This document shows, piece by piece, positions 1,233 to 43,049 of a stretch of 54,044 bases of DNA (positions are counted from its first letter, which is position 1; each line of letters opens with the position of its first letter). Where the stretch lies: positions 1 to 54,044 of the forward strand of contig JACRKA010000097.1 of assembly GCA_016219905.1 (NCBI GenBank), read 5' to 3'. The position numbers and the translations under genes were made by a program. Below the pieces are notes generated by a model, which worked only from the letters and a program-made list of their open reading frames with translations, ran no database searches and was not told the origin of the DNA. The DNA comes from Verrucomicrobiota bacterium. Its GTDB lineage: Bacteria; Verrucomicrobiota; Verrucomicrobiia; CAIQCK01.

Positions 1233-1574
<342 letters not shown>

Positions 1575-3227: not shown

Positions 3228-3302
3228 GCCCCGCTCACGCTTGCGGGACGCGGAAGGTCTGGCGAAATTTGAGCGGGCTGGTTAAAAGGGACGGGCAGGC
3301 TG

Positions 3303-4343: not shown

Positions 4344-4347
4344 CCTG

Positions 4348-5046: not shown

Positions 5047-5148
5047 ACCGGCAGCGCGGCCGGGAGGAGAAAGGTATTGCTTCAGGGGTGGCGAAAAGCT
5101 AGTTTTCTGGGGCAACTGCGGACCGAGAGCGGTGTTGGACATACAGCC

Positions 5149-5313: not shown

Positions 5314-5370
5314 GGGGTGGCGGCGCGGCAGCCAGAGGAGTCATAGCGGCAGCGGTCGGCAGGAGAAACC

Positions 5371-5643: not shown

Positions 5644-5700
5644 TTCGGCGCTTGTAAACGTGGCTGGCAGAGGAGGCCAGCTGCGGCCACGAGGGTCACG

Positions 5701-6267: not shown

Positions 6268-7886
6268 ACATTCTCCGTCCAACGCCCTCCGCGCCGCCCG
6301 CCTGCAACCGCCGGCGGGGCCAGACGCTGATCTTCGTGATGATGGTGCTGGCGATCCTGTCGTTCGTGATGTTCTCGGTGTATGACGTGCAGCAGGTGGC
6401 CAGCGCGCGGGTCCGGGCGCAGAACGCCTCCGACGCGGCGGCGCTGGCCGGGGCGCGCTGGCAGGTCACGACGCTCAACGCCATCGGCGAGATCAACCTG
6501 CTGAAGCTGACGACGGCGATCATTGACACGCCGCCGTCGCCGTATGCGGGGCCGGTGCCGGCTTCGCAGTGGCACTCGCTTTTTTCTGATATCAGCAACG
6601 GGTTGGATGGGTTGCAGGAGCGGCTCAGCCGGATCGGGCCGTTGCTGGGCGTGTTCTACGCGCAGCAGGCGGCGAAGCTCAACGGCATGCACGTGGTGGC
6701 GTCGTATGCGCAGCCGTTCAATGACACGATCACCTGGATCAGCACGCACGCGTCGGATTATCCGCCGTATTACCAGACGGAGTTGGTGCCGCTGCTGCAG
6801 GAGATCGTCAACCAGGGCGTGGCGGCGTTGCCGGCGGGGGCGCTGGGCAATCCCGGTTCGTTCGACCTCTCGGAAGCTTCGGGATGGGCGGGGTATTTGT
6901 TGAGCCGGCGTTTTTACGAGGCCATCGCCGCGCAGGACTGGTGTTACTTGCGGCCGGTGTTGAACGCGCCCTACACGGACGCGACCTCGTTCTGGGGCAT
7001 CGTGCGGCCGGGCGACCCGCCGGACCCGCTGCAATTCCTGCCGCTGTGGGTGATGCCGCAGTTTTTCTCGCCGGACACCGTCGAGCAGCAGCTTTCGGAC
7101 AGCGTGCCGGCGATCCAGACTCTGACCAGCCTGCGCAACCTGCAACTCAACCCGAATTTCCCGACCAACACAGGCGATACGAACTATCCGCACTTCAGCG
7201 AGCCGGTGGATCCGATCGCCTTCTACGTGCCGCTGCAACTCTTCGTCTATCGGGGGCAGTGGAGTTGGGGCGGCAACGATGACCAGGCGGAAGCGCTGTT
7301 GCTGCGCAGCCGGTTCAAGCCGCAGTTCCGCTACAAGGGCGCCGATTCGGTCTGGGCGGTGCAGGGCACGGCCAACGTGGTGATGGCCCCGGCGAACCCG
7401 GAGCAGGTTTCGTGGACTTCCGCGCACGAGCAGGAAGGCCTGCGCACGGCATTTGGCGAGCTGGCCTACCTCACCAACCGCGTCGGCAGCATCGGCTACG
7501 GCATCATGGGCAGCGCGGCGGCCAAGCCGTTCGGCCAGATTGACGAGAGCACGCCGCCCAACGGCGCGCCCGGCAGCCCGATCCCGCTGGTGCTGCCGGT
7601 GTTCGACTCGGTGCGGCTGATCCCGATCGCGTTCTCTTCGGGCACCGCGCAGTTCGACCCGTTGTGGTTCATCCATCTGCGCGACCATCTTTATCCCTAC
7701 ACGTCGCAAGGCATCGGCGCGATCTCGGGGGCCTGCCCGTATTGCGCCGACTTGATTCTCTGGGAAAGCTCCGCGTTCCGGCAGATCGGGCTGGACTGGT
7801 TTGCCGACGCCGCCAAGGACGGCCGCGACCCGTGCCCGCCCGGCGGCGGCGGCTGGAACAGCAACAACGGCATCATCGCCCACTGA
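6264..7886 (+). CDS. TadG-like pilus assembly protein with N-terminal pilin-type anchor
   Basis: 540 residues starting at the ATG that overlaps the previous stop. After CNRRRG comes QTLIFVMMVLAILSFVMFSVYDV, a prepilin-like hydrophobic anchor, and then the Tad-G/TadE_N-type pattern ARVRAQNASDAAALAGARWQ. That 'NASDAAALAGA' pattern is typical of TadG-family proteins. No Glu is found at +5, so processing by the prepilin peptidase is unsure. The ~470-residue exported part is rich in Trp, Pro and Tyr and has no motif I recognise. Its place between two TadE-like genes suggests a large minor component or tip protein. Confidence 0.72.
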   Translation: MNILRPTPSAPPACNRRRGQTLIFVMMVLAILSFVMFSVYDVQQVASARVRAQNASDAAALAGARWQVTTLNAIGEINLLKLTTAIIDTPPSPYAGPVPASQWHSLFSDISNGLDGLQERLSRIGPLLGVFYAQQAAKLNGMHVVASYAQPFNDTITWISTHASDYPPYYQTELVPLLQEIVNQGVAALPAGALGNPGSFDLSEASGWAGYLLSRRFYEAIAAQDWCYLRPVLNAPYTDATSFWGIVRPGDPPDPLQFLPLWVMPQFFSPDTVEQQLSDSVPAIQTLTSLRNLQLNPNFPTNTGDTNYPHFSEPVDPIAFYVPLQLFVYRGQWSWGGNDDQAEALLLRSRFKPQFRYKGADSVWAVQGTANVVMAPANPEQVSWTSAHEQEGLRTAFGELAYLTNRVGSIGYGIMGSAAAKPFGQIDESTPPNGAPGSPIPLVLPVFDSVRLIPIAFSSGTAQFDPLWFIHLRDHLYPYTSQGIGAISGACPYCADLILWESSAFRQIGLDWFADAAKDGRDPCPPGGGGWNSNNGIIAH

Positions 7887-8500: not shown

Positions 8501-9228
8501 CGATCCGTCCGCCGGCCAATCTCCTGCTGCTGCTGCTCGCCGGGCTTGCCTTCACGATGGGCGGGCCTTACGCTGCCGCCCGCGTTTTTCTCAGCGGCGG
8601 CGACTCGCCGCTCGCTGCGGCCTCGGAAGAGGCGGGCTTCAAACAGGTGTATAAGACCGAATACAAAATCAACGGCGCCGACGCGGCGCTGGAGGTCTAT
8701 GCGGCCGACCTGCCGGCGGCCGTCGCCGCGCAACGGCTGCAGGACGCGCTGCGCGGACGCCAAATCAACGCCACCGTCACCGCCACCGAGGCGGGCGGCT
8801 CGGGCGTGCTGGCCACCAAGGATGAACTGACCCGGATGCTGTTGCAGGCGGCCAAGCCGGGCCGGACGATGCTCTACGCCGTGCGCCAGAGCACGGAGGA
8901 CGCGGCGAAGTATGCCGCCGCGCGCGCCGGCGGCGAGGTCATTGACGCAAAGCTGCCCGGCATCCCGGCGTATCCCGGCGCGCGGCTGGTGCATCACGTC
9001 GAGGACAAGAAGACGAAGACCCTTCTCGCCGTGTATAAGGGCAGCGGCGAACCGTCGCTGGTGCGGGACTACTTCGCGCAAAGCCTGCCGCCCAACGGCT
9101 GGCAGCCTGTTTTCCCCGGCGGCCCGATGTATCGGCGCGGGCCGATGAACTGCATGATCAGCGTCACCCCCAGCCAGCAGCTCGGCGAACTGACCATCAC
9201 CGTGCTCGTGCGGCACTCCTCGCTATGA
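8497..9228 (+). CDS. Membrane-anchored Tad-locus protein of unknown function
   Basis: 243 residues from a GTG start that overlaps the previous stop by 4 bases; the next gene is coupled in the same way. A single N-terminal hydrophobic stretch (residues 7-28) would export or anchor it. The C-terminal ~80 residues carry the pattern IPAYPGARLV...YKG...VRDYFAQSLPPNGW, a 'PYPGA...FY..L...GW' module seen in small exported domains of unknown role. I do not recognise a named Tad family. Position inside the run points to a role in pilus biogenesis. A TTG at 8464 is an alternative start but would put residues before the signal segment. Confidence 0.65.
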   Translation: MTIRPPANLLLLLLAGLAFTMGGPYAAARVFLSGGDSPLAAASEEAGFKQVYKTEYKINGADAALEVYAADLPAAVAAQRLQDALRGRQINATVTATEAGGSGVLATKDELTRMLLQAAKPGRTMLYAVRQSTEDAAKYAAARAGGEVIDAKLPGIPAYPGARLVHHVEDKKTKTLLAVYKGSGEPSLVRDYFAQSLPPNGWQPVFPGGPMYRRGPMNCMISVTPSQQLGELTITVLVRHSSL

Positions 9229-10148
9229 AACAGAAAATCATCCTTCTCGTCGCGTTGCTGGCGGGCCTGGCCGCCTTCATCCTCTCCAAGCAATACATCG
9301 AGAACTTCAAGGCCGAATACCAGAAGCAGTTCAACACCATCTCGGTGATCGTGGCGGCCCGCGACCTGGTGCCCGGCACGAAAATCACGAGGGATGACAT
9401 CGGCATGAAGGATGTCTTCGCCAAGGGGATCACCGGCCGCGTGTTCAAGCCGGATGAGGCCGCGGAGCTTATTGGAAAGAAAACACTCTTCATGATCCAC
9501 AAGTTGACGCCCATCAACTGGAACGACGTGGACATGCCCTACCGGGGCTTGAGCGGCCTCTCCGGCATGATCACCCGCGGCGACCGGGCCATTGCCTTCG
9601 CCGTGGATGCCGTCTCCGCCGTCTCCGGCCACGTCAAGCCCAACGACCACGTGGACATCATCGGCACCTTCAGCTTCCCCGGCCAGGGCAAAGGCCCCAG
9701 CGGCTCCGGCCCGGCCGAGACCGTCACGCTGACCATCCTGCAGGACGTCACCATCCTGGCCACCGGCAAGAACACCGGCCGCCGCGGCTTGGAGATGGAG
9801 ATGACCGAGCGCTTCGGGGGCGAGCAATACAACAGCGTCACCGTCGCCGTCACGCCGCGCGAGGCCGAGATGCTGATCTTCGCCTCATCGAAGGGCAAGC
9901 TCGCGCTGGCCCTGCGCAACCGCGAGGACGTCTCCGTGGAGAAACAACTCGGCAACGTGGACTTCCAGCAGTTGGAGAAGAACTTCAACGTCCTCAACGC
10001 CGAGCGGCAGCAACGGCTGCACCCGCCGCTGTTCGGCCAGCCGAGCGCGCCGCCGCCGGCCGCCCTGCCTGGACCCGCTACGTTGCCATCGCCTTCGACG
10101 CCGAAGCCCGCGCCCGTGGCCGTGCCCGGCCCGCCGGCCAAACCGTGA
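9225..10148 (+). CDS. cpaB: Flp pilus assembly protein CpaB/RcpC
   Basis: 307 residues. An N-terminal membrane segment (residues 4-20) is followed by a SAF-like beta-clip domain with VIVAARDLVPGTKITRDDIG, then the RcpC-type block GDRAIAFAVDAVSAVSGHVKPN, and VTVAVTPREAEMLIFASSKG. A Pro/Ala-rich tail of ~45 residues ends the protein. CpaB acts in the periplasm with the secretin CpaC; no secretin gene is in this window. It is coupled to the preceding gene through an ATGA overlap and lies 30 bases before the FHA-CpaF ATPase. Confidence 0.9.
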   Translation: MKQKIILLVALLAGLAAFILSKQYIENFKAEYQKQFNTISVIVAARDLVPGTKITRDDIGMKDVFAKGITGRVFKPDEAAELIGKKTLFMIHKLTPINWNDVDMPYRGLSGLSGMITRGDRAIAFAVDAVSAVSGHVKPNDHVDIIGTFSFPGQGKGPSGSGPAETVTLTILQDVTILATGKNTGRRGLEMEMTERFGGEQYNSVTVAVTPREAEMLIFASSKGKLALALRNREDVSVEKQLGNVDFQQLEKNFNVLNAERQQRLHPPLFGQPSAPPPAALPGPATLPSPSTPKPAPVAVPGPPAKP

Positions 10149-10178
10149 CCTGCACGCCGAGACCAACCCCAGGCTGAC

Positions 10179-11882
10179 ATGCCAGACGACACTCCCCACC
10201 AACTCGACCTCGTCATCGAACTGATCGAAGACGGCCAGAAACGGATCATCCGCCAGCAGTTGACGCCGGCGGTCTATGCCATCGGCAGCGACCCCAAGAG
10301 CGCCATCTGCATTGACCACAGCGGCGTCTCGCGCAACCACGCCAGCCTCTTCTACGAGCCGAACCAGATCCTCAGCGAAGACCTCGGCAGCACCACCGGC
10401 ACCTTGGTCGAAAACGTCCGCATCAAGCGCGCCGCCCGCGTCCGCATCGGCCAGCGCGTCGGCATCGGCCCGTGCCTCATGTGGCTGGAGCCGCCGAAAC
10501 AGAAGGAAGCCGGGCCGGCGGAGGCCGGGGAACCGGAGCCGGAGAAGGACGCCCGCGTGCCGCAACGCAGGCCGACCGAGGTCATGGCCGGCGACACCTC
10601 CCGCGCCCAGGTCCGCAAGATCAAAGGCCAGATCCACTCCGAACTGCTGCGGCGGCTCGACCTGAAGCGGATGACCGTCAACAAGACCTCCGAGAAATCC
10701 CTCCAGGACAAGGTCCGCACGACGGTCCACGTGATCGTCAACGAGATCAAGAGCCAGCTTCCCTCGAACATCTCGCCCGCCCAGCTCGCGCGCGAGGTCA
10801 TCCAGGAAGCCATCGGCCTCGGCCCCCTCGACGACCTGCTGGAAGACGAGAGCGTGACCGAAATCATGGTCAACGGCTGCGACAAGATCTTTGTGGAGAA
10901 GGCAGGCAAGATCCTCTTGAGCGACCGCACGTTTGTGGACGACACGCAGGTGCTCGCCATCATCGAGCGCATCGTGGCGCCCATCGGCAAGCGCATTGAC
11001 GAAAGCTCGCCCTACGTGGACGCCCGCCTGCCCGACGGCAGCCGCGTCAACGCCATCATCGCGCCGCTCTCGCTCAAAGGCCCCACCATCACCATCCGCA
11101 AGTTCGCCCGGGTGCCGTTCACGGTGGAGGACCTGATCTCGCGGTTCAACACCATGACGCGCGAGATCTCGGAGTTCATGCGCATCTGCGTGCTGCTGCG
11201 CAAGAACATCATCATCTCCGGCGGCACCGGCTCCGGCAAGACCACGCTGCTCAACGTGCTGTCCAACTATCTGCCGAAGGACGACCGCATCGTCACCATC
11301 GAGGACACCGCCGAGTTGCGCCTCAACCAGCCGCACATCATCAGCCTCGAAGCCCGCCCGCCCAACATCGAGGGCCGCGGCGCGGTCACCATCCGCGACC
11401 TCGTCCGCAACGCGCTGCGCATGAGGCCCGACCGCATCGTCGTCGGCGAGTGCCGCGGCGGCGAAGCGCTCGACATGCTCCAGGCCATGAACACCGGCCA
11501 CGACGGCTCGCTCACGACCGTCCACGCCAACTCCCCGCGCGACACCATCAGCCGCCTGGAGACGATGGTGCTGATGGCGGGCATGGACCTGCCCAGCCGC
11601 GCCATCCGCGAGCAGATCGCGTCGGCCATTGACATCGTCTGCCACACCGACCGCCTCAGCGACGGCTCGCGCAAGATCACCAAGGTCTCCGAGGTCATCG
11701 GCATGGAGAAGGACGTGATCGTGATGCAGGACCTGTTCGTGTTCACGCAGACCGGCATCAACCCGCAGAACAAGGTGCTCGGCTACTTCACGCCGACCGG
11801 CTCGATCCCGACCTTCATCGAGGACGTCTCCACGCGCGGCCTGACGCTGGACCGCGCCGTGTTCGCGCCGCGCCTCCCATGA
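10179..11882 (+). CDS. cpaF: CpaF/TadA secretion ATPase with N-terminal FHA domain
   Basis: 567 residues. Residues ~10-105 form a forkhead-associated (FHA) domain, with the hallmark VSRNHA (residues 50-55) and the strand LGSTTGTLVEN; such domains bind phosphothreonine. After a charged linker the CpaF ATPase follows: LGPLDDLLEDESVTEIMVNG, the Walker A loop GGTGSGKTT near residue 350, the Asp box ED(T)AELRL, and the His box MNTGHDGSLTTVHANSPRD. It powers Flp pilus polymerisation from the cytoplasmic face. The FHA fusion implies regulation by a Ser/Thr kinase or binding to a phosphorylated partner. It overlaps tadB by 4 bases. Confidence 0.93.
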   Translation: MPDDTPHQLDLVIELIEDGQKRIIRQQLTPAVYAIGSDPKSAICIDHSGVSRNHASLFYEPNQILSEDLGSTTGTLVENVRIKRAARVRIGQRVGIGPCLMWLEPPKQKEAGPAEAGEPEPEKDARVPQRRPTEVMAGDTSRAQVRKIKGQIHSELLRRLDLKRMTVNKTSEKSLQDKVRTTVHVIVNEIKSQLPSNISPAQLAREVIQEAIGLGPLDDLLEDESVTEIMVNGCDKIFVEKAGKILLSDRTFVDDTQVLAIIERIVAPIGKRIDESSPYVDARLPDGSRVNAIIAPLSLKGPTITIRKFARVPFTVEDLISRFNTMTREISEFMRICVLLRKNIIISGGTGSGKTTLLNVLSNYLPKDDRIVTIEDTAELRLNQPHIISLEARPPNIEGRGAVTIRDLVRNALRMRPDRIVVGECRGGEALDMLQAMNTGHDGSLTTVHANSPRDTISRLETMVLMAGMDLPSRAIREQIASAIDIVCHTDRLSDGSRKITKVSEVIGMEKDVIVMQDLFVFTQTGINPQNKVLGYFTPTGSIPTFIEDVSTRGLTLDRAVFAPRLP

Positions 11883-12769
11883 GCCTCCAGATCGCCAGCA
11901 ACATCTCGGCGCTGCTGTGGTTCCTGGCGGCGGGCGCCGTCGTCTGGGCCATCGGCACGTGGCTGATCGAGATGTTCAAGGGCTACCGGGAGGTCTATAT
12001 CGAGGAGACCGGGCGGCACATGGACGACATGTTCCTGTCGCTGCCGCCGGAGCAGGTGGCCAACCTCGCGCTGATTTTCGGCGTGGTGTTTTTCCTGGCG
12101 TGCTTCGGGACCATCGGCAGCTTCGAGACCACGCCGCGGTTTCTCGGGACGACGTTCTTTTCGCTGGTGATCGGCGGGCTGGGCTTCATGATCCCGCGCG
12201 CTTTTGTGCGCCGGCTGCGGTTCAATCGGCTGCTGCTGTTCAACGAGCAGCTCGTGGACGCGATGGCGACGATGAGCAACTCGCTGCGGGCCGGGTTCAG
12301 CATCCTGCAGTCGTTCGACATGGTGATAAAGGAAAACCGCCGGCCGATCAGCGAGGAGTTCGGCCTGTTCATGCACCAGCACCGCCTCGGCATGAAGTTC
12401 GAGGAGGCGATGGCCAACCTGAGCAAGCGCGTCGGCAGCCAGGACCTGGATCTGATGATCGCCGCCATCGAGACGGCGCGGCAGACCGGCGGCAACCTGA
12501 CCGAGGTGTTTGACCAGCTCGCCACCACCGTCCGCGAGCGGATGCGGGTGGAGGGCAAGATCCGGTCGCTGACGGCGCAGGGCCGGTTGCAGGCGATGGT
12601 GGTGGGGTTGATGCCGCTGGTGCTGGCGGGCGCGATGTATATGATCAGCCCGGTGATGATGCAGGGTTTTGTTTACTCCACGGCCGGCATCGTGACGATC
12701 GCGATTGCGCTCGGCATGGAGGTCATCGGTTACCTCATCATCAAGAAGATCGTGAGCATTGATGTCTGA
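11879..12769 (+). CDS. tadB: Tad inner-membrane platform protein TadB
   Basis: 296 residues. N-terminal membrane helices (residues 12-28, and a pair at ~60-105), then the T2SS-F domain with LVDAMATMSNSLRAGFSILQSF and ETARQTGGNLTEVFDQLA, and two C-terminal membrane helices. This order is characteristic of TadB. TadB and TadC form the platform that couples CpaF ATP hydrolysis to pilin insertion. The start overlaps the cpaF stop. The expected partner tadC is not next: a minus-strand gene begins its 3' end only 16 bases beyond, and tadC follows it. Confidence 0.9.
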   Translation: MSLQIASNISALLWFLAAGAVVWAIGTWLIEMFKGYREVYIEETGRHMDDMFLSLPPEQVANLALIFGVVFFLACFGTIGSFETTPRFLGTTFFSLVIGGLGFMIPRAFVRRLRFNRLLLFNEQLVDAMATMSNSLRAGFSILQSFDMVIKENRRPISEEFGLFMHQHRLGMKFEEAMANLSKRVGSQDLDLMIAAIETARQTGGNLTEVFDQLATTVRERMRVEGKIRSLTAQGRLQAMVVGLMPLVLAGAMYMISPVMMQGFVYSTAGIVTIAIALGMEVIGYLIIKKIVSIDV

Positions 12770-12785
12770 CGCGAAGGCACGCGGC

Positions 12786-13412
12786 TCAGTAGCCCATGGT
12801 CTTCAGGACCTGCTTGGCGTAGGTGAAGGATGAGATGAAGCTGGCGTAGTCGTTCTTTAACAAAGCGTCCGTGGCGTTGTAGAAGCTGATGGTCAGCGTG
12901 CGGACGGCCGTGGCGCGGGCCACCGAGGACAGGTCGCGGTAACGTTGCGTCAGGGTCTGGAGCAACACGCGGTTCTGTGTCGCGACCTGGCTGACCTGCT
13001 TGTTGCGGTTGCCGACGTTCTTGATCTGGAGCGCCGCCTCCAACTGGGTCAGGATCCGCGCGTAGTTCTTCAGGTCCTTGTTCTGGTCCTTCTTGAAGAC
13101 GAAGCGGCCGGCGAGGAACTGGAGGATCTTCTCGTCGGTGTCTATGGTGTCCAGCACGGCGAACTCGCGGGTCTTCTGGACCATGAACTCGTAGAGTTGC
13201 GGCAGGGTCTGGCGCAGGTGGTTCAGGTCCACTTGCGTCCAGGCGTAGTGCACGCTGCCATACTTGGTCCGGAAGTCGAGGCCTTCGCCGTCGGCCTTCG
13301 AGACCGTGCCCTCGAGTTCGGTGCCGTCGCGCAGCTTGATTTTGTCCGGCGTGGCGGCGGCGAGGGCCAGCGCGGCCGCCGCGAGCCAGGTGACGAAGCA
13401 GTAGGTTTTCAT
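12786..13412 (-). CDS. Exported protein with small Sm-like N-terminal module, inserted antisense between tadB and tadC
   Basis: 208 residues. Residues 1-20 are a signal peptide (MKTYCFVTWLAAAALALAAA). The next ~40 residues form a small beta-rich module, IKLRDGTELEGTVSKADG...FRTKYG, resembling the last ~40 residues of the PEGA lipoprotein at 16239 (TRDGRTLRGIVTRVDADGTVHF...). The remainder is predicted helical and rich in Gln, Lys and Leu. I do not recognise a family. The gene converges on tadB with 16 bases between stops and is divergent from tadC with 101 bases between starts. It therefore splits the locus into two transcription units, and tadC needs its own promoter. The shared module suggests it belongs functionally to the same envelope structure. 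Confidence 0.7.
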   Translation of the reverse strand: MKTYCFVTWLAAAALALAAATPDKIKLRDGTELEGTVSKADGEGLDFRTKYGSVHYAWTQVDLNHLRQTLPQLYEFMVQKTREFAVLDTIDTDEKILQFLAGRFVFKKDQNKDLKNYARILTQLEAALQIKNVGNRNKQVSQVATQNRVLLQTLTQRYRDLSSVARATAVRTLTISFYNATDALLKNDYASFISSFTYAKQVLKTMGY

Positions 13413-29577: not shown

Positions 29578-29736
29578 AACCATCCTTCGTCGCATTGGGG
29601 GCGCGAGGAACGGATTCGTTACCTGCTGTCGCAAAAGGATGGAATCAACGAGGTCATCCTCTACGAAGCCGCCTCGTGGATGACTTTGCCGCTCTCGGAC
29701 CACGACCTGTGCGGGCATGGGTTTCTTGACCGATGA
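29578..29736 (+). pseudogene. In-frame 3' remnant of a lost gene after the beta-helix stop
   Basis: Directly after the beta-helix stop codon, the same reading frame continues for 52 codons and ends at TGA 29734-29736. Its protein-like part reads EERIRYLLSQKDGINEVI and LYEAASWMTLPLSDHDLCGH, ordinary soluble-protein composition, with no start codon or ribosome site. A competing small frame (29574-29729) starts with an ATGA overlap but reads like low-information sequence. The simplest view is the tail of a deleted gene whose body was lost. The parent family is not recognised. Confidence 0.5.
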
Positions 29737-29855
29737 AGCAAATCAAGACTTCTATCGGGAACCAGCAGCAGACAACATGGAGATCACGAATGAAACGAAT
29801 CGTTACAGTTCGGCAAACACCGAGTCGCCAGTGGTTGCGCCAAGGAGTTTGCCTC

Positions 29856-30836
29856 ATGGTTGAAAGAATCCGCTCGGTTTGCCGGTTGGGCGCGGTCGCT
29901 TCTGTCCTGCTCCTGGTCGCGCTGTCCCAAGCCAACGGCGACGGCTCGAAAGGCGATGCGCACACTCAACTGGTTGCCAAGGGACAGCGCGTCTTCACGT
30001 GCGGCCACAGTTTTCATGTCTGGGTGGTTCGCATCCTGGACGAGATGGCCAAAGCGGCCGGCATTGACCACGAGGTCGCCGGCGTGTCGTCCATCGGCGG
30101 CTCGCGCGTCATCCAGCATTGGGATGTGCCGGACGAGAAGAACAAGGCGAAGGAAGCGCTGCGTGCCGGCAAGGTGGATGTGCTCACGCTCTCGCCCATC
30201 TGGCTGGTCCCGCCGAAGGATCTCAAGGCCGTGACGCCCGTCCCGGGGGACACGCGCGAGATCATCTGGCTGCCCGACGAGGGAATCGAGAAGTTCGCAA
30301 AGCTCGGCTTGGAGCACAACCCGAACATACGGGTCACCGTCCAGGAATACTGGCTGCCGAACGACGAGTATGTGCCGGTGTATCCGTTGCAGACCCGTAA
30401 GAAGGTGGACCACGACGCCACGAATCTCGCGGAGTTGCGGAAAAACCAAACGCGCTATGATTACGACGTGGATGGGTTCGTCCGCGATATCAATAAACGA
30501 CTCGGCAAGGACGTGATTGTCACCGTGCCGGCCGGGCAAGCGGTGCTGGCGCTGCGGGAGAAGATCATCGCCGGGAAGGCGCCCGGTCTGAAGACGCAGG
30601 CGGAACTCTTCCGCGACTCCTGGGGTCACCCCACGGCGCCGGTGCAGGCGCTGGCGACCTATTGCCATTTCGCGGTGATCTACCGCCGCAGTCCCGCCGG
30701 CCTGCCGCTGCCGACGATTCTCACGAAGAACCCGGAGTGGGATGACAAACTGAACCGTCTGTTGCAGGAACTGGCGTGGGAGGCTGTGATCCATCATCCG
30801 TTGAGCGGCGTCCGGGTGACGCACAAAGCGAAATAG
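29856..30836 (+). CDS. Exported SGNH/GDSL-hydrolase-like protein
   Basis: 326 residues. The ATG at 29856 has an AAGGAG site 8 bases upstream and starts a standard signal peptide (MVERIRSVCRLGAVASVLLL, cut near SQANG). In-frame ATGs at 29733 and 29790 exist but would give an unusually long n-region. The mature protein starts with RVFTCGHSFHVWVV, an SGNH block-I look-alike with the nucleophile Ser in GHS, contains SSIGGSRVIQHWD, and ends with RDSWGHPTAPVQALATYCHF, a likely catalytic-His region. SGNH enzymes are esterases and acetylesterases. The link is by pattern only; neighbouring beta-helix and propeller genes make polysaccharide or ester hydrolysis plausible. Confidence 0.65.
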   Translation: MVERIRSVCRLGAVASVLLLVALSQANGDGSKGDAHTQLVAKGQRVFTCGHSFHVWVVRILDEMAKAAGIDHEVAGVSSIGGSRVIQHWDVPDEKNKAKEALRAGKVDVLTLSPIWLVPPKDLKAVTPVPGDTREIIWLPDEGIEKFAKLGLEHNPNIRVTVQEYWLPNDEYVPVYPLQTRKKVDHDATNLAELRKNQTRYDYDVDGFVRDINKRLGKDVIVTVPAGQAVLALREKIIAGKAPGLKTQAELFRDSWGHPTAPVQALATYCHFAVIYRRSPAGLPLPTILTKNPEWDDKLNRLLQELAWEAVIHHPLSGVRVTHKAK

Positions 30837-30924: not shown

Positions 30925-32517
30925 ATGAAAACCAAGCTGATCTCTGTCCTTGCTCTCCTGATGGCCGTCGGCGCGACAGCCGGCGATGACGTCGCCGCCC
31001 GGCTCGCGCAGATGCCGCGGCCGTGGACGGCCAAGCCGAACCGTTTCACGCTGGCGGAATACGAGGCGACGTTGCGTTACTGGGCGGAGAAGCACGCGGG
31101 CGTGTTCAGCTTCGAGAAACGCGGCGCGTCGGTGGAAGGAGTGCCGATTTATTTGGTGAAGATCACCGACCGGCGCGTGCCGGACACAGACAAGCAGGTG
31201 GCGCTGATCACAGCGACGCACTCCGGCGGCGAACGCACGGGCGCGACCAGCGTGATGCGGTTCGCGGAATGGCTGCTGGGCAGTTCGAGCGAGGCGGTCG
31301 AGACGCGGCGCAAGCAGGTCGTGCTGCTGATGCCGGTGGTGAACCCGTGGGGCTACGAGACCGTGGAGAGTCCTTTCAACTCGCAGGGCATTGATCCCTA
31401 CAGCAGCCAGCGCGGCAAGGCGTGGAACCTCGACACGCTGACGCTGAAGGAGCCGGCGAAAAACCCGGAGATCATCGCTGTCCAGTCGGTCTTCGACGAG
31501 TTCAAGCCGGACGTGCAGTGGGACATGCACGGCGTGGCGCTACGCTGGAACGGCCAGCAGGTCGTTGAGTCGTGCGGCACGGCCTACTCGAACTACTCGC
31601 TGCGGCCGTGGGACTGGCGCATCACGGAGGCGATGATCGCCGAGGCGCGCAAGGCGGGTTACGGCATTGACCGTGGCGAGGCGGACACGCAACGGTTGTT
31701 TTTCGGGCCGGACATGCCGCCGCTCGCCGACCGTCTCTGGCTGGGCCGGCCGTTCTTCTACACGGCGATGTATGGCTACGCGCGTTATCACATGCTGCTC
31801 GGCACGGCCGAGGTCGGCTGGGAAGAAAGCGGCGTGGCACGGCTCCGCGGCCTGATGCGCATCGGCAACCGCGTCTGGGACGGTGAGAAGACCGCCGGCT
31901 ATCCGGTCAACGTGGTCAAGTCGCTCGTTGGCCAATGGCTCGTGGCTGCCGGACGCAACGCGACGGAGCAACGCCGCAACCGCGTCGAGTTGTGGCAGCG
32001 CCAAGGATCGTTCACGATGGGCGTGTTGTATCCGCAGACCGATTGCCGCGTCGGCTTGGTCGTGGCGCCCACGGCGAAGGGAGCGAAGCTGATGGATGCC
32101 GACCCGAAGAAGTTCGTCGCGAAGCTCGAAGCAGTGCCCGGTTGCGACGCATCGGCGATTCGTGCGTTTCTCGAAGCCGGGCCGGAGACGAAGATTTACT
32201 ACGAACCGCCCGACCGCGCGCCGGAGGACCGTCCGCTCGACGCGGCGTTCGCGTTCCGGCTGCGCATCCCGTATCGCAACCCGAAGCTGCTCGACCTGCG
32301 GCTCAACGGCCGCGCGTTGCACCAAAGTCCGACCGACGGTTATCAACGCTGGTATGGCGATGGCTACACGCAGGTGCAGGTGAACATTCCAGCGGAGAAG
32401 GCGCGCGGCGCAGACTTGTTCGTCGTGACGTGCGCCTACAAGCCCGACGTGCAGCGCACCTACGGCTGGCGTCCGCCAGCCGAGGTGATGGAGCGGTTGA
32501 AAGCGAAGACGAAGTGA
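30925..32517 (+). CDS. Exported M14-like zinc carboxypeptidase
   Basis: 530 residues with signal peptide MKTKLISVLALLMAVGATAG. The M14 skeleton is visible: TLAEYEATLRYWAEKHAGVF..VPIYLVKIT, then THSGGERTGA as the zinc-binding region, NPWGYE and AWNLDTL where canonical enzymes have NPDGYE and NLNRNF, the third zinc ligand in VQWDMHG, and the probable catalytic Glu in GTAEVGWEES. Two oddities: the first zinc motif reads H-S-G-G-E (one residue longer than HxxE), and the Arg of the N-R pair is absent. Activity may be altered. The stop overlaps the start of the next gene (GTGA), tying it to the methyltransferase cluster. Confidence 0.75.
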   Translation: MKTKLISVLALLMAVGATAGDDVAARLAQMPRPWTAKPNRFTLAEYEATLRYWAEKHAGVFSFEKRGASVEGVPIYLVKITDRRVPDTDKQVALITATHSGGERTGATSVMRFAEWLLGSSSEAVETRRKQVVLLMPVVNPWGYETVESPFNSQGIDPYSSQRGKAWNLDTLTLKEPAKNPEIIAVQSVFDEFKPDVQWDMHGVALRWNGQQVVESCGTAYSNYSLRPWDWRITEAMIAEARKAGYGIDRGEADTQRLFFGPDMPPLADRLWLGRPFFYTAMYGYARYHMLLGTAEVGWEESGVARLRGLMRIGNRVWDGEKTAGYPVNVVKSLVGQWLVAAGRNATEQRRNRVELWQRQGSFTMGVLYPQTDCRVGLVVAPTAKGAKLMDADPKKFVAKLEAVPGCDASAIRAFLEAGPETKIYYEPPDRAPEDRPLDAAFAFRLRIPYRNPKLLDLRLNGRALHQSPTDGYQRWYGDGYTQVQVNIPAEKARGADLFVVTCAYKPDVQRTYGWRPPAEVMERLKAKTK

Positions 32518-33212
32518 ACAACGCCGTCCGCAAACACCAGACCCGCTTTGGTGTGCTCGAGGAGCGCGGGCCGGAGACGATCCTCGCCGATGCCGCGACG
32601 GCGTTCATGCTGCCGCTGCTCCGCGTCCGTCGCGGCGACCGCGCCGCCGAGCCGGGCTGCGGCACTGGTGTGTTGAGCATCTGCATGGCGCTTACCGGCG
32701 CGGCGCGAGTGACCGGCACCGACACCGATCCCGCGGCGATTGCCGCCGCGCGGCAGAATGCTGCCAGCAACCGCGCGCCGAACGCCGAATTCATCGAGGG
32801 CAGCCTGCTCGAACCTGTCGCCGGGCCGCTTGACCTTGTCGTCGCCAACCTGCCGCACCGTCCCGCGCCGCAGCCGTTCAACGCGCGCTACTACGGCGGC
32901 TCCGACGGCACCGACCTCGTCCGTGCGCTCATCTCGCAGGCCGCAGACAAGCTCGCGCCCGGCGGACGGTTGGTGTTCTACCTCAACAGCATCGCCAACC
33001 CGCGCCGCGTGCTGGCCGCGCTCGCGGAGCGATTCGACGTGACGACGCTCGGCGAGCGCCGGCGCGATTTCACGCGCGAGGAGTTCGACGCGCTCACGCC
33101 CGGCCTGTTCGCGCACCTCGAAGCGCAGCGCGACCGCGGCGAGGCGGAGTTCTGGCGCGACGAGAACGAGCTTTATTTCACCGGGCGGGTCTATGAAGCT
33201 CGCCTGCGATGA
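32514..33212 (+). CDS. Class I SAM-dependent methyltransferase (HemK/PrmC-like fold)
   Basis: 232 residues from a GTG start that overlaps the carboxypeptidase stop. SAM motif I is AAEPGCGTGVLSI, motif II GTDTDPAAIAAARQNA, and the post-motif ANLPHRP stands where N5-glutamine methyltransferases have NPPY. The N-terminal ~35 residues are a short cap rather than the PrmC helical domain. The NLPH variant suggests an N- or O-methyl acceptor other than release-factor Gln. It is translationally linked to a ChbG-like deacetylase downstream. The acceptor is probably a cluster product; that is inference. Confidence 0.82.
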   Translation: MNNAVRKHQTRFGVLEERGPETILADAATAFMLPLLRVRRGDRAAEPGCGTGVLSICMALTGAARVTGTDTDPAAIAAARQNAASNRAPNAEFIEGSLLEPVAGPLDLVVANLPHRPAPQPFNARYYGGSDGTDLVRALISQAADKLAPGGRLVFYLNSIANPRRVLAALAERFDVTTLGERRRDFTREEFDALTPGLFAHLEAQRDRGEAEFWRDENELYFTGRVYEARLR

Positions 33213-33880
33213 GCCAGCCACGCACCCTCATCATCAACGCCGACGACCTCGGCCTCTCGCCGGAGGTGGACGCCGGCATTCTGGATTGCGTGAAGGCCGG
33301 CACGGTCACGGCCGTGTCGGTGATGGTCAACCCGCCTTACGAAGCAGACATCGCACCCTTTGTCGCCGCAGGCGTTTCGATATGCCTCCACTGGAACCTC
33401 GTGCCTTTGCCAGCCCAGTTTGACCCAGGGGATGCAGAGCGCGAACTGCGGGCACAACTGGACCGTTTCCGGCAAATCACCGGTCGCGAGCCGGCGCAGT
33501 TGAACTTCCACAAGCACCTCCATGCCCGCGACGGGCGGTTGCTGGAGATCGCATTGAAACTAGCGCGGGAGACCGGCGCGTCGCTGCGGGCCATCAACCC
33601 GGCGATGCGCGAACATTGCCGCGCGTGCGGTGTCCGCACCACCGACCATTTCGTCGGCGATGTCGTGCCGGCACCCTACTGGACGGAGGTGCGGCTGCGC
33701 GAGGTGTTGGCGACGTTGCCGCCGGGCGAGACGGAGTTGATGTGCCATCCCGGCAAGAACGTTGGTCCGATTGGAGGCTTGTTTTACCTCGCCGAGCGCG
33801 ACACGGAACGGGTCACGTTCACCTCGCCCGCGACGGCCGCTTTGATTGGCGGTCTTCAACTGCGAGGCTTCTTGCGATGA
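33209..33880 (+). CDS. ChbG/YdjC-family carbohydrate deacetylase
   Basis: 223 residues. YdjC family marks: LIINADDLGLSPEVDAGIL (metal-binding Asp pair), VSICLHWNL (His), LNFHKHLHA (HxH), and ELMCHPGKN near the C-terminus. The fold is a TIM-like polysaccharide deacetylase that removes N-acetyl groups from small oligosaccharides; E. coli ChbG acts on chitobiose. The start overlaps the methyltransferase stop by 4 bases and the stop overlaps the ATP-grasp start in the same way. Cytoplasmic, so it acts on a soluble sugar intermediate. Confidence 0.87.
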   Translation: MSQPRTLIINADDLGLSPEVDAGILDCVKAGTVTAVSVMVNPPYEADIAPFVAAGVSICLHWNLVPLPAQFDPGDAERELRAQLDRFRQITGREPAQLNFHKHLHARDGRLLEIALKLARETGASLRAINPAMREHCRACGVRTTDHFVGDVVPAPYWTEVRLREVLATLPPGETELMCHPGKNVGPIGGLFYLAERDTERVTFTSPATAALIGGLQLRGFLR

Positions 33881-34683
33881 AACTGACGATCCTCGACTTC
33901 AGCGTTTACGGCAACCGCTACGATCCTGAGAGCGACGCGCTGCTGGAGGCGGCAACCCAACGGCTTGGCGTCACGACGACAACGACGTTCGTATCGCGCG
34001 AGCAAGCTGCGACCGTCTTGCCGGACTCCGAGTGGGTTTGGCTCCGCTACGACCTCCGTTCGTCGGACGATCTGGAACTGGTTGTGTCTCTGGCGCGCCG
34101 GCTGGAGATCGAAGGTCGGCGCGTGTTCCCTTCCGCTGCGGCGATTCTCGCGACGGAGGACAAGTGGGAAGGCTGCCTTGCGCTGCGGCGCGGCGGGGTG
34201 GCTGTGCCGGAGACGGCGCTCGCGATGGAATGGGCGCGGTTTCCGCTGCCCATCATCGTGAAATCCCGCGTCGGCTGGGGTGGAATCGGCACGGCGGTCG
34301 CGCGCGACGCGGCGGAACTGGAGCGCGCGCGGGCGTTGTTGGACGAGGAACACATCTGCCAGCCGTTCATCGCCAGCACGCGCACGCTGGTCGTCGCGCT
34401 CGCCGACGGCGGCGAGATTGCGTGCATCGAGGACCTCTGCGGTCTCTCCACCGACGGCCGGACGCGCACGGTGCCGATGCCGCCGGACGCGGCGGCGCTG
34501 GCGGCGCGCACATTGGAGGCGACCGGATTGGTGGCGGGCACGGTGGACATGATCGAGTCGCCGGACGGCCTGCGCGTGCTGGAGGTCAACTCGTCGCCGC
34601 GCATCACGTATCCGCATCTGCCGGAGTTGGATTTGGCGACGCCGATGATGAAGGCGGTGTTGAGGCAGTGGATGAGCCGATGA
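33877..34683 (+). CDS. ATP-grasp ligase (RimK-like)
   Basis: 268 residues. Nucleotide-binding strands LPIIVKSRVGWGGIGTAVARD (the ATP-grasp small-domain Lys and Gly loop), HICQPFIASTR, and the metal site in TVDMIESPDG..VLEVNSSPRI (the last E and N). The N-terminal ~90 residues form a RimK-like pre-ATP domain. ATP-grasp enzymes of this type form amide bonds by an acyl-phosphate intermediate, commonly joining amino acids to a carboxylate. Being between a sugar deacetylase and a glycosyltransferase, it may acylate the amine freed by deacetylation; that is inference. 4-base overlap with both neighbours. Confidence 0.85.
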   Translation: MKLTILDFSVYGNRYDPESDALLEAATQRLGVTTTTTFVSREQAATVLPDSEWVWLRYDLRSSDDLELVVSLARRLEIEGRRVFPSAAAILATEDKWEGCLALRRGGVAVPETALAMEWARFPLPIIVKSRVGWGGIGTAVARDAAELERARALLDEEHICQPFIASTRTLVVALADGGEIACIEDLCGLSTDGRTRTVPMPPDAAALAARTLEATGLVAGTVDMIESPDGLRVLEVNSSPRITYPHLPELDLATPMMKAVLRQWMSR

Positions 34684-35756
34684 AAATCCTGATTTGCATC
34701 CCGTTTGAGCGATCCGCACCGAAAGGCAACAGCGTCGCCGCGCGGCGGCTGGCGGCGGGCTTTGAGCAAAAGAGAAATGCCGTCGCAATCCTCGATTACC
34801 CAGCCGTCGCCGACGCGGCGGCGGTGGCGGCAGTGGTGCGCGAATTCCGGCCCGACGTAGCGTTGGTTATGCACGCGTGGCGTTGCGCCGCGGCCCTGCG
34901 GGCGATCAAGTGCGCCGATGTTCCGGTGGTGGCTTCGTTGCGCGGGACTGACGCGAACGAGATGCTGGACGACCCGGCCACGCGGGACGAACTCGCGGCG
35001 GCACTGTCGGCCAGCGACGCCATCGTGGTGTTTCACGAACGGTTCAAGGAGCGGCTCGCGGCGATGGATGCGCAGTGGGGAGCGAAGACGCTCGTGATCG
35101 CGAACGGCGTCGAGTTGCCCCGGTCAAACATGGACTACCGCCAACGGCTGGCGATTCCAGCTCCAGCCTTCGTCTTCGCGACGGTCGCCGGGCTTCGCGA
35201 GGTCAAGCGGCCCCTATGGCCCGTGCCGCTCTTGGCGCAACTCCGCGAACGGCATCCCGCCGTCTTTTGGGTTCATGTCGGGCCGCCGATCGAGGCCGAT
35301 CTTGCTCGGCAGATGCAGGCGCTCGTGGCGCAGCATCCTTGGATTCGCCACGTGGACGGCGTGCCGCACGAGGAGATGGACTCGTTTCTGCGCGCGGCGG
35401 ACGTGGCGGTGGCCGCGAGCCGCTCCGAAGGCATGCCCCACGCGGTGCGCGAGGCGATGTTGGCTGAACGGGCGCTTCTGTTGTCCGACATCGAGGGACA
35501 TCGCGTCGAGGCCGAACCGGAACGTGAGGCGTTGTTCTTTGGCAACGAGGCAGAGTTTCTCCAACAAGCGACGCGGCTCATCGAAACTCCGGCGCTGCGC
35601 GAACGCCTGGGCGACGCCGCGCGCCGGCGGGTGACTGCGGATTTGCAGCGCCACGACGAAATCGCGGCGTATCTGGTTTTGTTTCGTTCTCTGGTCGAAA
35701 GAGAAGGCACGCAGCGGACTTCCAGAACCGGACCGGCAAGCAATGAGGCCGGTTAG
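34680..35756 (+). CDS. GT4-type glycosyltransferase
   Basis: 358 residues of GT-B fold. The N-terminal domain opens MKILICIPFERSAPKGNSVA with Gly-Asn near the acceptor loop, and LVMHAWRCAAAL. The C-terminal domain has the nucleotide-sugar signature SRSEGMPHAVREAM (E-x7-E). The central LVIANGVELP is the linker typical of family 4. The donor is not shown by sequence. The start overlaps the ATP-grasp stop by 4 bases; it is the last of the coupled set. The final 4 bases overlap the desaturase on the other strand. Confidence 0.87.
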   Translation: MKILICIPFERSAPKGNSVAARRLAAGFEQKRNAVAILDYPAVADAAAVAAVVREFRPDVALVMHAWRCAAALRAIKCADVPVVASLRGTDANEMLDDPATRDELAAALSASDAIVVFHERFKERLAAMDAQWGAKTLVIANGVELPRSNMDYRQRLAIPAPAFVFATVAGLREVKRPLWPVPLLAQLRERHPAVFWVHVGPPIEADLARQMQALVAQHPWIRHVDGVPHEEMDSFLRAADVAVAASRSEGMPHAVREAMLAERALLLSDIEGHRVEAEPEREALFFGNEAEFLQQATRLIETPALRERLGDAARRRVTADLQRHDEIAAYLVLFRSLVEREGTQRTSRTGPASNEAG

Positions 35757-36778
35757 CTGGCCGGGCTGCTGGGGAGCGGGGCGGCGTATTGGTAAGCCGG
35801 GTCCTGCTGCTGCCGCCGCTGAATCGCCGCGATCTCCTTCCATGTGGCGAAGATTCCGACGGGGCACGGCGGCAGGTCGTGTTGGATGGCGGCGTGCAGC
35901 TTGCCGAGTTTGTAGCACGGCACGGCGGCATACATGTGGTGCTCGGTATGATAGTTCATGTGCCAGTAAAGAAACCGGGCGACCGGATTCAGCAGGAACG
36001 TCCGGCAACAGAGCCGGAAATCCGGCACGTTGTCCTGCAGCCCGATGTGCTGCGTCTTGTTGCAAAGGAAGAACAGCCAGTTCCCGCAGAACATGGCGAA
36101 CGTGGTCAGGACCGGCACCATCCAGAGCTTGTAGTAGCACGACACCGCGATGATCAACCCATGCCCGACCAACAGCGTCCAGGCCCAGGCGATCGCCGGC
36201 CGTCGTTTCTCCGGCGCGTCGGGCGGGAACAGCTCCAGTTCCCACTCGCCCTTAAACTTTCCGGCGGCGATGCGCACGGCATCCATGATCAGGGCGGTCG
36301 GTGTGCCCGGGGTCGTGGCGATGTTGAAGAACCCTTCCCTGAAAAAGTCGCGCACCACGATCTTGACCGGCAACACCACCTCACGGTCGTCGGGCGGATG
36401 CAAGGTGTAGCGGTGATGCCGCGCATGGCTGGCGTTGAACGTCTCGAAGTTGATCCAGCCCAGAAAGGCAGTCATACGCTCGAACAGCGCATTGAGCCAC
36501 TTCGTCCGGAAGACCGTGCCGTGGCCGAGTTCGTGGACGGCATTGATCTGAAAGGAGAAACAGGTGCCGTGCAGGAACAACAGCGCGACCACGACCGGGA
36601 CCGGCGCATGGCCCGCCGCGTAGAATGCCGCCCCACCCGTCAGCGCCAGGACGCCGAGATAGCCGAGGCACTGGAGCAATCCCCGCGCATCGCTGCGCTC
36701 GTGCAGGCTGTTGAACACGGCCGGCGCCAGTGGCGTTCGATACCATCGGATCGGCGCGTTCTTTTCCGAGGTGCTCAT
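35753..36778 (-). CDS. Membrane fatty-acid desaturase (FA_desaturase family)
   Basis: 341 residues with four hydrophobic pairs. Its three His boxes are HELGHGTVF (near residue 80), HARHHRY (near 118) and HTEHHMY (near 278), the classical membrane FADS/PF00487 set that includes acyl-lipid desaturases and alkane or carotenoid-type hydroxylases. The start at 36778 is preferred to 36823 because it begins just before the conserved region. A weak AAGAG site precedes it. It is the last gene of a minus-strand run adk-APC-MHS-desaturase. It overlaps the GT4 gene tail to tail by 4 bases. Confidence 0.88.
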   Translation of the reverse strand: MSTSEKNAPIRWYRTPLAPAVFNSLHERSDARGLLQCLGYLGVLALTGGAAFYAAGHAPVPVVVALLFLHGTCFSFQINAVHELGHGTVFRTKWLNALFERMTAFLGWINFETFNASHARHHRYTLHPPDDREVVLPVKIVVRDFFREGFFNIATTPGTPTALIMDAVRIAAGKFKGEWELELFPPDAPEKRRPAIAWAWTLLVGHGLIIAVSCYYKLWMVPVLTTFAMFCGNWLFFLCNKTQHIGLQDNVPDFRLCCRTFLLNPVARFLYWHMNYHTEHHMYAAVPCYKLGKLHAAIQHDLPPCPVGIFATWKEIAAIQRRQQQDPAYQYAAPLPSSPAS

Positions 36779-36937
36779 GGTGCGCTCTTGGGACGAAACA
36801 AAGGGTCGCGCGGTGCCCACCAACTTGAGTGGTCAGCGTCGCCAAACAGACGGTAGGATAGATGTTGCCCCGCCCGGCCGCAAATCGCGACAAACCGGCG
36901 TTGGTGTTGGAGCTATCTCGTCGGGAAACCTTGAAGG

Positions 36938-40643: not shown

Positions 40644-43049
40644 ATGAAAACCGGCAAGGGCAAAAAGGGGTGGGTGTTGGCCGCGGTCATCGTCGCCGCC
40701 GCGTGCGTGGCCTTTGGTGTCTGGAAATCGGGGCGATGGCAAAACACGCCAGCAAACAACCGCACGGTCACGGCCGCGCCGGCAGACGCCGGGTTCACCG
40801 GCTCGCGCACTTGCCGTGATTGCCACGAGAAGTTCTACAAGCTCTGGTCCACGTCGCATCACGGTCTGGCGATGCAGCCGTTCACGGCCGAGCTGGCGCG
40901 CAAGGAGTTGCAGCCGCAGAAGGAGGACCTGGTCATCCGCGGCGTGCGCTACCGGGCCGTCATCGAGGGCGGCCAGAACCACGTGCTCGAACGCGGGCCG
41001 CAGGGCGAGCGGAAGTATTCCATCGTCCACGTCATGGGCGGCAAGAACGTCTATTATTTCCTCGGCCCGCTCGACCGCGGCCGGCTGCAGGTGTTGCCGG
41101 TCGCCTACGACGTGCGCCGCAAGCAATGGTATGACACCACCGCCAGCGCGATGCGCCACTTCCACGAGAACCCCGACGAGGCGCTCGACTGGCGCGAACG
41201 GCCGTTGACGTTCAACACGAGCTGCTTCAACTGCCACGTCAGCCAGCTCGAGAAGAACTACAACCCGCACAGCGACAGCTACCACACGACGTGGATCGAG
41301 CCGGGCATCAACTGCGAGACCTGCCACGGCCCCTGCGGCGAGCACGTCAAGCTCTTCAAACAGCTCGGCCCCGCCGGCGCCGAGCACCCGCCGAAGGACG
41401 TGAAGCTCATCAAGATGACGACGATGGCGCCCGTGCCGCGCAGCGACACCTGCGCGCCGTGCCACGCGAAGATGGTGCCGCTGACCACGACCTTCCAGCC
41501 GGGCGACCGTTACTTCGACCACTTCGACCTCGGCGCGCTGGAGGACCGGGACTTTTATCCCGACGGGCGCGACCTCGGCGAGAACTACACGTTCACGCTC
41601 TGGAAACTCAACCCGTGCGCCAAGAACGGGAAGTTCGACTGCGTCCACTGCCACACCTCCAGCGGGCGCGACCGGTTCGCCGGCGAGAAGGCCAACAACG
41701 CCTGCCTGCCGTGCCACAAGACCCACGTCGAGAACCCCGCCGCGCACTCCCACCACGCGGCCGGCAGCGAGGGCGGCAAATGCGTCGCCTGCCACATGCC
41801 GATGACCGAGTTCGCCCGGATGCGGCGCAGCGACCACTCGATGCGCGCGCCCGCGCCGGCCGCCACGCTCGCGTTCAAGTCGCCCAACGCCTGCAACCTC
41901 TGCCACGCCGACAAGGACGCTGCGTGGGCCGACGGCTTCGTCCGCAAATGGTATCCGCGCGATTACCAGGCGCCCATCATCCGCCTCGGCCGGCTCGTGG
42001 ACGCCGCCCGCAAACGCGACTGGTCGAAGCTGCCGGAGATCCTCGACTACATCGCCAACAAGGACCGCGAGGAGGTTTACGCCGGGTCGCTGGTCCGGCT
42101 GCTGGAATTCTGCGACAACGAGGCGAAGTGGCCGGCGATCGTCAAGGCGCTCAAGAACGACCCGTCGCCGTGGATCCGCGCGCGGGCCGCCGAGGCGTTG
42201 CAGAGCCGGCTCGATTCCGACACCGTCCCGGCGCTGGTGGCCGCCACGCGCGACGACACCCGGCTCGTGCGCATCCGCGCCGCGTCGTCGCTGGCGAGCT
42301 ATCCGGCCGACTACCTCGAACCCGCCGACCGCGAGAGCGTCAAGCGCGCCGCGGCGGAGTTCGAGGCGCACCTGAAGTCGCGCCCTGACGACGGCGCGTC
42401 GTTCTACAACCTCGGCAACTTCCACATGGCCCGGCGCGAGTATGAGCAGGCGATCGCCTGCTTCGAGACGGCGAACAAGCTGCAAGCCGACTTGTTCGCG
42501 GCGCACGTCAACGCCGCGCTGGCCTACAACGCCGCCGGGCGCAACGACAAGGCCGAGGCGGCGCTGCGGCAGGCCATCAAGCTCGACGCGACCAACGCGG
42601 TGGCCAACCTCAACCTCGGCCTGTTGCTCGGCGAACTGGGCCGGGCGCGCGAGGCGGAGGGCGCGTTCCGCACGGCGCTGAAGAGCGAGCCGCGCAACGC
42701 GGTGGCCGCCTACAATCTCGCGGTCATCGCGGGCCAGGACGGCCGCGTGGACGAGGCAATCACGCTGTGCGGCAAGGCCGCCGAGGCCGCGCCGCAGGAG
42801 CCGAAATACGCTTACACGCTCGCGTTCTACCAGCGCCAGAAAGGCCTGACCAACGACGCGGTCCGGACGTTGCGCCGGCTGCTGGCGGGCCGGCCCGCCT
42901 ACGGCGCCGCCTACGCGCTGCTCGGCGAGATTTGCGAGCAGCAGGGCGACCGCAGCGGCGCGGCAGAGGTGTATCGGCAGGCGGCGGAGAACCGGCGGCT
43001 CTCCGAACAGGAGCGGGCGCAGTTCGCGCAGCGGCTGCAGTCGTTCTAG
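40644..43049 (+). CDS. Octahaem c-type cytochrome with HEAT-like and TPR repeats
   Basis: 801 residues. After a lysine-rich start and one membrane helix or signal (residues 10-28), the periplasmic part has eight CxxCH haem sites between residues ~57 and 430: CRDCH, CFNCH, CETCH, CAPCH, CVHCH, CLPCH, CVACH and CNLCH. From ~450 comes a HEAT-like region (KNDPSPWIRARAAEALQSR), and from ~570 to the end five or so TPR units (GASFYNLGNFHMARREYEQA, AVANLNLGLLLGELGRAREA). It would carry electrons and dock partners through the TPR array. The redox substrate is unknown. Haem maturation genes are not in the window. Confidence 0.92.
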   Translation: MKTGKGKKGWVLAAVIVAAACVAFGVWKSGRWQNTPANNRTVTAAPADAGFTGSRTCRDCHEKFYKLWSTSHHGLAMQPFTAELARKELQPQKEDLVIRGVRYRAVIEGGQNHVLERGPQGERKYSIVHVMGGKNVYYFLGPLDRGRLQVLPVAYDVRRKQWYDTTASAMRHFHENPDEALDWRERPLTFNTSCFNCHVSQLEKNYNPHSDSYHTTWIEPGINCETCHGPCGEHVKLFKQLGPAGAEHPPKDVKLIKMTTMAPVPRSDTCAPCHAKMVPLTTTFQPGDRYFDHFDLGALEDRDFYPDGRDLGENYTFTLWKLNPCAKNGKFDCVHCHTSSGRDRFAGEKANNACLPCHKTHVENPAAHSHHAAGSEGGKCVACHMPMTEFARMRRSDHSMRAPAPAATLAFKSPNACNLCHADKDAAWADGFVRKWYPRDYQAPIIRLGRLVDAARKRDWSKLPEILDYIANKDREEVYAGSLVRLLEFCDNEAKWPAIVKALKNDPSPWIRARAAEALQSRLDSDTVPALVAATRDDTRLVRIRAASSLASYPADYLEPADRESVKRAAAEFEAHLKSRPDDGASFYNLGNFHMARREYEQAIACFETANKLQADLFAAHVNAALAYNAAGRNDKAEAALRQAIKLDATNAVANLNLGLLLGELGRAREAEGAFRTALKSEPRNAVAAYNLAVIAGQDGRVDEAITLCGKAAEAAPQEPKYAYTLAFYQRQKGLTNDAVRTLRRLLAGRPAYGAAYALLGEICEQQGDRSGAAEVYRQAAENRRLSEQERAQFAQRLQSF

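Follow-up and report, generated by a model that had tools for sequence, protein, structure and literature searches.

A cassette of four genes, encoding a methyltransferase, a ChbG-family deacetylase, an ATP-grasp ligase and a family 4 glycosyltransferase (GT4), lies on the forward strand of contig JACRKA010000097.1 from a Verrucomicrobiota bacterium (genome G000; the 54,044 nucleotides analysed are hereafter the window) and is predicted to make a small, likely selenium-bearing amino sugar with N-modifications. According to this reading, to which we assign a probability of roughly 0.45, a selenium derivative of N-acetylglucosamine (seleno-GlcNAc) would be made, deacetylated, acylated, and N-methylated. 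The cassette itself, at 32514-35756, is a genuine and rare unit common to distant phyla. The initial annotation of this DNA had described a run of five genes at 30925-35756, and the open frames and family matches confirm it: all four junctions are 4-base stop/start overlaps (GTGA or ATGA), at 32514-32517, 33209-33212, 33877-33880, and 34680-34683. The enzyme families named at that time are likewise borne out by Pfam and NCBIfam matches, and the features are as follows.

30925-32517, forward strand: M14-like zinc carboxypeptidase with an N-terminus that by eye resembles a signal peptide (PF00246, 44.7 bits)
32514-33212, forward strand: HemK/PrmA-class S-adenosylmethionine methyltransferase, likely an N-methyltransferase, with a GTG start (PF05175, 66.9 bits)
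33209-33880, forward strand: YdjC/ChbG-family amidohydrolase, predicted N-deacetylase (PF04794, 128 bits)
33877-34683, forward strand: RimK/LysX-like ATP-grasp carboxylate-amine ligase of a rare family of its own (PF02655 and PF08443, both over cut-off)
34680-35756, forward strand: GT4 glycosyltransferase, relative of the SenB and GPMC-system GT4s, predicted selenosugar (or GlcNAc-conjugate) synthase (NF038229, 238.2 bits)
32514-35756, forward strand: conserved four-gene cassette in the order methyltransferase-ChbG-ligase-GT4, kept in loci L007-L013 and L124

The conserved neighbourhood of ATP-grasp, ChbG and GT4 genes that the initial annotation had proposed to look for exists, the order of all four genes being identical in nine genomes (the window, L007-L013, and L124). 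When the ligase was searched against a collection of named genomes, eight loci were returned, seven of which are true relatives, and all seven have the four genes in the window's order; they belong to Riflebacteria (three), Planctomycetes (two), Deltaproteobacteria, and Syntrophus. The eighth, L014, was dropped as it has a distant ATP-grasp only, and L124, from a sample of the planctomycete phylum (genome G646), supplies a further, distant copy. With start codons picked by homology, 16 of the 24 junctions within the cassettes of the window and these seven loci are exact 4-base overlaps, and 20 of the 24 overlap.

The unit is also uncommon. At E<=1e-20 the ligase has relatives in 34 clusters (7998 candidates scored out of 5.8 billion proteins), and a tblastn search against plasmids gave no match. 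Among 57 genomes of the window's kin, a true copy resides only in the window's own genome, the five other matching genomes having been set aside as weak ATP-grasp matches of 27-32% identity; the ligase is present in 3 of 39 genomes of the Riflebacteria phylum and in 3 of 392 sampled from the phylum of Candidatus Anammoximicrobium, where six candidates per genome were scored. For 10 of the 34 clusters, the window's included, the longest contig matches in exact length that of one among 98 GT4 homologues, a sign that further linked pairs may exist. Beyond the four genes, neighbour matches across phyla in the seven named loci are limited to a TusA-like domain (L007 and L009) and two doubtful matches of open reading frames (ORFs) to L012. 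The M14 peptidase, originally proposed as a fifth member of the pathway, does not share in this conservation: no M14 relative is found in the 57 loci scanned, the eight with the cassette among them, which makes the peptidase a local neighbour outside the conserved unit. It has no NCBIfam or PDB sequence match.

That the four activities belong together is further indicated by the recurrence of an ATP-grasp of another subfamily with GT4, ChbG and methyltransferase genes, and by gene fusions. A search of 395 genomes from the Deltaproteobacteria phylum of L011 with NF038229, the model for the GT4 of the GPMC system, yielded 31 genomes at E<=1e-50, four of them over the family cut-off. Two of the 31 are cassette genomes. 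In the loci examined in the other 29, a ChbG gene adjoins the GT4 gene in 24, and in seven a single ORF encodes a D-Ala-D-Ala-ligase-like ATP-grasp followed by a cassette-family methyltransferase, beside ChbG and GT4 genes (L055, L056, L057, L058, L060, L063, and L064; in L055 it occupies 8871-10580 on the reverse strand). The model for this ligase type was built from the same seven loci, and Pfam and NCBIfam confirm it for L055. A second kind of fusion joins a cassette-type GT4, recognized by its motifs, to a methyltransferase in the metagenome proteins P0043 and P0045. As a separate observation, six of the 29 loci (L061, L062, L066, L067, L068, and L071) pair a second glycosyltransferase, GT4b, with ChbG and a SenB-like GT4, and one of these six (L068) has a methyltransferase match.

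The best NCBIfam match of the GT4 is NF038229 (238.2 bits against a cut-off of 400); it also matches the SenB model TIGR04348 (84.5 against 300), BshA (41.7 against 273.7), and MshA (27 against 462.5). All of these scores are under cut-off, and an assignment as a true GPMC enzyme, SenB or BshA was rejected, as was one of the deacetylase as a true ChbG. For SenB, PMC10891094 describes a selenophosphate pocket of N20, H58, R61, T83, T85, and R155, with K158 as catalytic residue. The window GT4 keeps equivalents of N20, H58, R61, T85, R155, K158, E231, and E239, and has Arg in place of T83. In a midpoint-rooted tree of GT4s, the SenB, GPMC and cassette enzymes separate from BshA, GT4b and a further GT4 with support of 89/91, which is not strong. 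The comparison with the SenB group suggested by the initial annotation thus ends with a GT4 that, as judged from its sequence, is a distant SenB relative keeping most of the putative selenophosphate pocket. The same three Riflebacteria genomes that carry the cassette also encode a second, diverged SenB-like GT4 away from it (L074, L125, and L126).

The deacetylase scores 128 bits against a PF04794 gathering score of 29.7, and 68.3 bits against a cut-off of 227 with NF002559, the model of chitin disaccharide deacetylase ChbG proper; the motifs ADD, LH, the first His of HKH, and CHP are kept in all eight aligned copies. The ligase falls under the curated cut-off of the RimK subfamily model (55.8 against 143.4 bits) and has invariant K96, K129, D224, E236, and N238 across 19 sequences. 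The methyltransferase, present in nine of nine cassettes, finds a gentamicin methyltransferase and an apramycin N-methyltransferase entry as its best PDB sequence matches, and its structural model (predicted local distance difference test score, pLDDT, of 93) retrieves gentamicin methyltransferase structures at Foldseek ranks 1-6; these structures are absent from the 50 VIA-align rows for the same model. By sequence and Foldseek it resembles amino-sugar N-methyltransferases and is likely an N-methyltransferase. It also scores 100.8 bits with the PADLOC profile mad2, of which the match spans only a part. A role in defence was rejected, as PADLOC matched the methyltransferase only and none of the other four genes.

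Gene neighbourhoods in Riflebacteria provide the link to selenium. Just behind the cassette, and on its strand, L007, L008, and L010 have yedF, a gene for a class V aminotransferase akin to cysteine desulfurases and selenocysteine lyases, and selD. SelD is over cut-off at these places in all three genomes; YedF of L007 scores 192.3 bits (cut-off 110), and YedF and the lyase of L008 and L010 were assigned by homology. In L007 the GT4 and yedF genes overlap by 4 bases (ATGA), and selD is fused to a selenium/sulfur-carrier domain. PMC5322559 links YedF, a protein with SirA-like and DsrE-like parts, to SelD and puts forward DUF3343 as a chaperone for selenium or sulfur; the accession given there identifies DUF3343 with the Pfam family Se_S_carrier (PF11823). 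Five other genomes of the Riflebacteria phylum (loci L113-L116 and L121) have the yedF-lyase-selD set without the cassette. One of them, L121, carries on one strand (2-7707) genes for a selenium-dependent molybdenum hydroxylase (TIGR03313, 1217.7 bits, over its cut-off of 1101.9), a MocA-like protein (140.6 bits where the cut-off is 186.45), YqeB (291 bits, cut-off 220), YedF, a selenocysteine-lyase-like protein, and SelD, so that the molybdenum hydroxylase genes, a known selenium user, occupy the cassette's place before yedF-lyase-selD.

Genome content bears on the same question. In G057, the genome that holds L007, SelD is present and genome searches did not find SelA, SelU or YqeB; the only SelB-like match, in a 397-residue frame, scores 191.9 bits, under the cut-off of 242.25. 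It was from an orphan SelD of this kind that the part played by selenium in molybdenum hydroxylases was earlier deduced (PMC2276186), and G057 would represent the same situation. SelD is present in nine of nine cassette genomes, YqeB in two of nine, and SelU was found in none of the nine. In L009, of Candidatus Anammoximicrobium, DsrE2-like and TusA-like sulfur carriers that together resemble a split YedF lie some 650 bases behind the GT4 gene (12490-13146); a gap with a stretch that by eye looks like a promoter separates them from the GT4, and for this reason they were not used as evidence.

If these enzymes act in concert, the GT4 would transfer GlcNAc from uridine diphosphate (UDP)-GlcNAc onto SelD-made selenophosphate to give 1-seleno-GlcNAc. 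SenB prefers UDP-GlcNAc, a preference that would supply the N-acetyl group for ChbG. The ChbG-family enzyme, as its family and metal-site motifs suggest, would then strip the N-acetyl group, the ligase would acylate the exposed amine with a carboxylate that is probably an amino acid, and the methyltransferase would methylate a nitrogen of the product or, alternatively, the selenium. The earlier idea of an amino sugar acylated by the ligase is supported, yet is still something we infer.

Several observations weigh against the selenium step. The selD gene lies beside the cassette in three of nine genomes, the window not among them, and the three belong to one phylum; the linkages may represent a single event (approximately unbiased test, p = 0.42). 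Two independent linkages to selD were considered and rejected: L007 groups with the window in the GT4 tree and in the concatenated one, though weakly, and monophyly of the Riflebacteria copies is not rejected. SelD is frequent among comparison genomes, being found in six of six genus or family relatives of G000, in 14 of 15 genomes of the Deltaproteobacteria phylum, and in 15 of 20 of the planctomycete phylum; its frequency in other genomes of G000's class is 1 of 15. With so high a background, co-occurrence with SelD was rejected as proof. In G000 itself, selD and selA are on other contigs than the cassette. This genome has both selA and selB, and its selD contains an in-frame TGA; its SelD accordingly works at least partly for selenoproteins. 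G646 has no detected SelB although its TGA-containing SelD needs one, which shows that a draft genome may come without its SelB. No cassette gene occurs near the SelD loci of G059, G061, G062, and G063 (L127-L130; for G062, one of its two SelD loci), and there is no match to SelD, YedF or the lyase in the examined flanks of L009, L011, L012, L013, and L124, or among the 14 window genes scanned.

The main alternative, somewhat less probable than the selenium reading, is that the product is a glucosamine conjugate resembling mycothiol or bacillithiol and free of selenium. Here the GT4 would attach GlcNAc to a small acceptor with a phosphate or carboxylate group; ChbG would take the role of BshB/MshB and the ligase that of BshC/MshC, and the methyltransferase would finish the molecule. 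The GT4 model (pLDDT 92.6) is as close in structure to BshA and MshA as to SenB, the T83-to-Arg exchange would fit an acceptor that is a carboxylate or a phosphate of larger size, and the flanks examined outside Riflebacteria, like the scanned window genes, are without the selenium genes. Sequence identity, however, is higher to SenB structures (21-24%) than to BshA (16-18%), and the Arg of the HAxR motif, shared by SenB and most of the cassette GT4 family, is absent from both BshA fragments, in which the presence of the motif's His depends on the alignment. A conjugate without selenium would also leave the selD operon of Riflebacteria and the orphan SelD of G057 unexplained.

Decoration of a cell-surface glycan or lipid by the GT4, deacetylase and ligase is improbable. 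Envelope pathways often contain GT4 and YdjC enzymes, and the addition of GT4b in six of the 29 Deltaproteobacteria-phylum loci would fit such a role, but no further neighbour family is consistently shared across phyla, and the enzymes most like the GT4 belong to small-molecule pathways. Least probable is that four co-transcribed genes serve unrelated steps and adjoin selD by chance: the adjacency could have come from one event in one phylum, but the gene order shared by nine genomes, the two types of fusion, and the exchange of the ligase for another ATP-grasp with the other three genes kept all speak against it. What emerges is a plausible new selenium small-molecule pathway, whose product is predicted from the genes.

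Other genes of the window surround the run. A 367-residue ORF on the cassette's strand (29733-30836) has no Pfam or NCBIfam match, a fatty acid desaturase gene on the reverse strand (35753-36823) shares its last 4 bases with those of the GT4 gene, and an 801-residue protein (40644-43049) has cytochrome c554/c7-like, HEAT and TPR matches.

Searches of open PMC papers found none for 'GPMC system' with glycosyltransferase, none using the word GPMC among the 10 listed in connection with Geobacter or Pelobacter, and none for a set of ATP-grasp, ChbG, glycosyltransferase and methyltransferase; no such gene set appears in the titles and abstract openings of the selenium papers listed or in passages of PMC5322559, PMC9312934, and PMC2276186. 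If the selenium reading is true, the cassette represents a new biological use of the element. Its GT4 is a candidate for a second type of selenosugar synthase, the cassette could account for an orphan selD, and its four-enzyme pathway lends itself to reconstitution in vitro. Even without selenium, it would be a pathway for which no name was found, uniting a GT4, a YdjC deacetylase, an ATP-grasp ligase and a likely N-methyltransferase.

Among known systems, SenB, the selenosugar synthase of the selenoneine pathway (TIGR04348; structures 8jjn, 8jjt, 8k5u, 8rz3, and 8fbx), shares with the cassette GT4 the fold and the GN, HAxR, GTD, and R..K motifs and two Glu, which hold UDP-sugar and selenophosphate in SenB, and the cassette GT4 lies beside selD (senC) in some genomes; it differs in its low score with the SenB model, in the Arg at T83, and in an operon with deacetylase, ligase and methyltransferase. 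No SenA was named in family scans of the 14 window genes, and the genomes were not searched with a SenA model. The GPMC system (GT4 NF038229 and metallo-beta-lactamase hydrolase NF038231) supplies the best match of the window GT4, and ChbG adjoins the GT4 in three of its four over-cut-off loci (L045-L047), whereas the window GT4 is under the 400-bit cut-off, none of seven other cassette genomes exceeds it, and those four loci have no match to the cassette-type ATP-grasp. The NF038231 hydrolase was found in L048, beside the GT4, and in L052, some 5 kb away, and is not among the 14 window genes scanned. Bacillithiol and mycothiol synthesis (BshA/B/C and MshA/B/C/D) resembles the cassette in GT4 structure and in its logic of a GT4, a deacetylase, and an amide-forming ligase; here, by contrast, the deacetylase is of the YdjC type, the ligase is an ATP-grasp, and the operon has no PIG-L deacetylase or BshC/MshC. 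The selenium-dependent molybdenum hydroxylase trait (SelD-YedF-YqeB) places the same yedF-lyase-selD genes beside those of a selenium user, as in L121, with the difference that here the cassette, and not a molybdenum enzyme, would be the user. It is enticing to speculate, although we would not wager on it, that a roaming cassette puts SelD to a new use, making a seleno-glucosamine conjugate, the selenium counterpart of mycothiol and bacillithiol, in which a second class of selenosugar synthase sets the chalcogen on the sugar.

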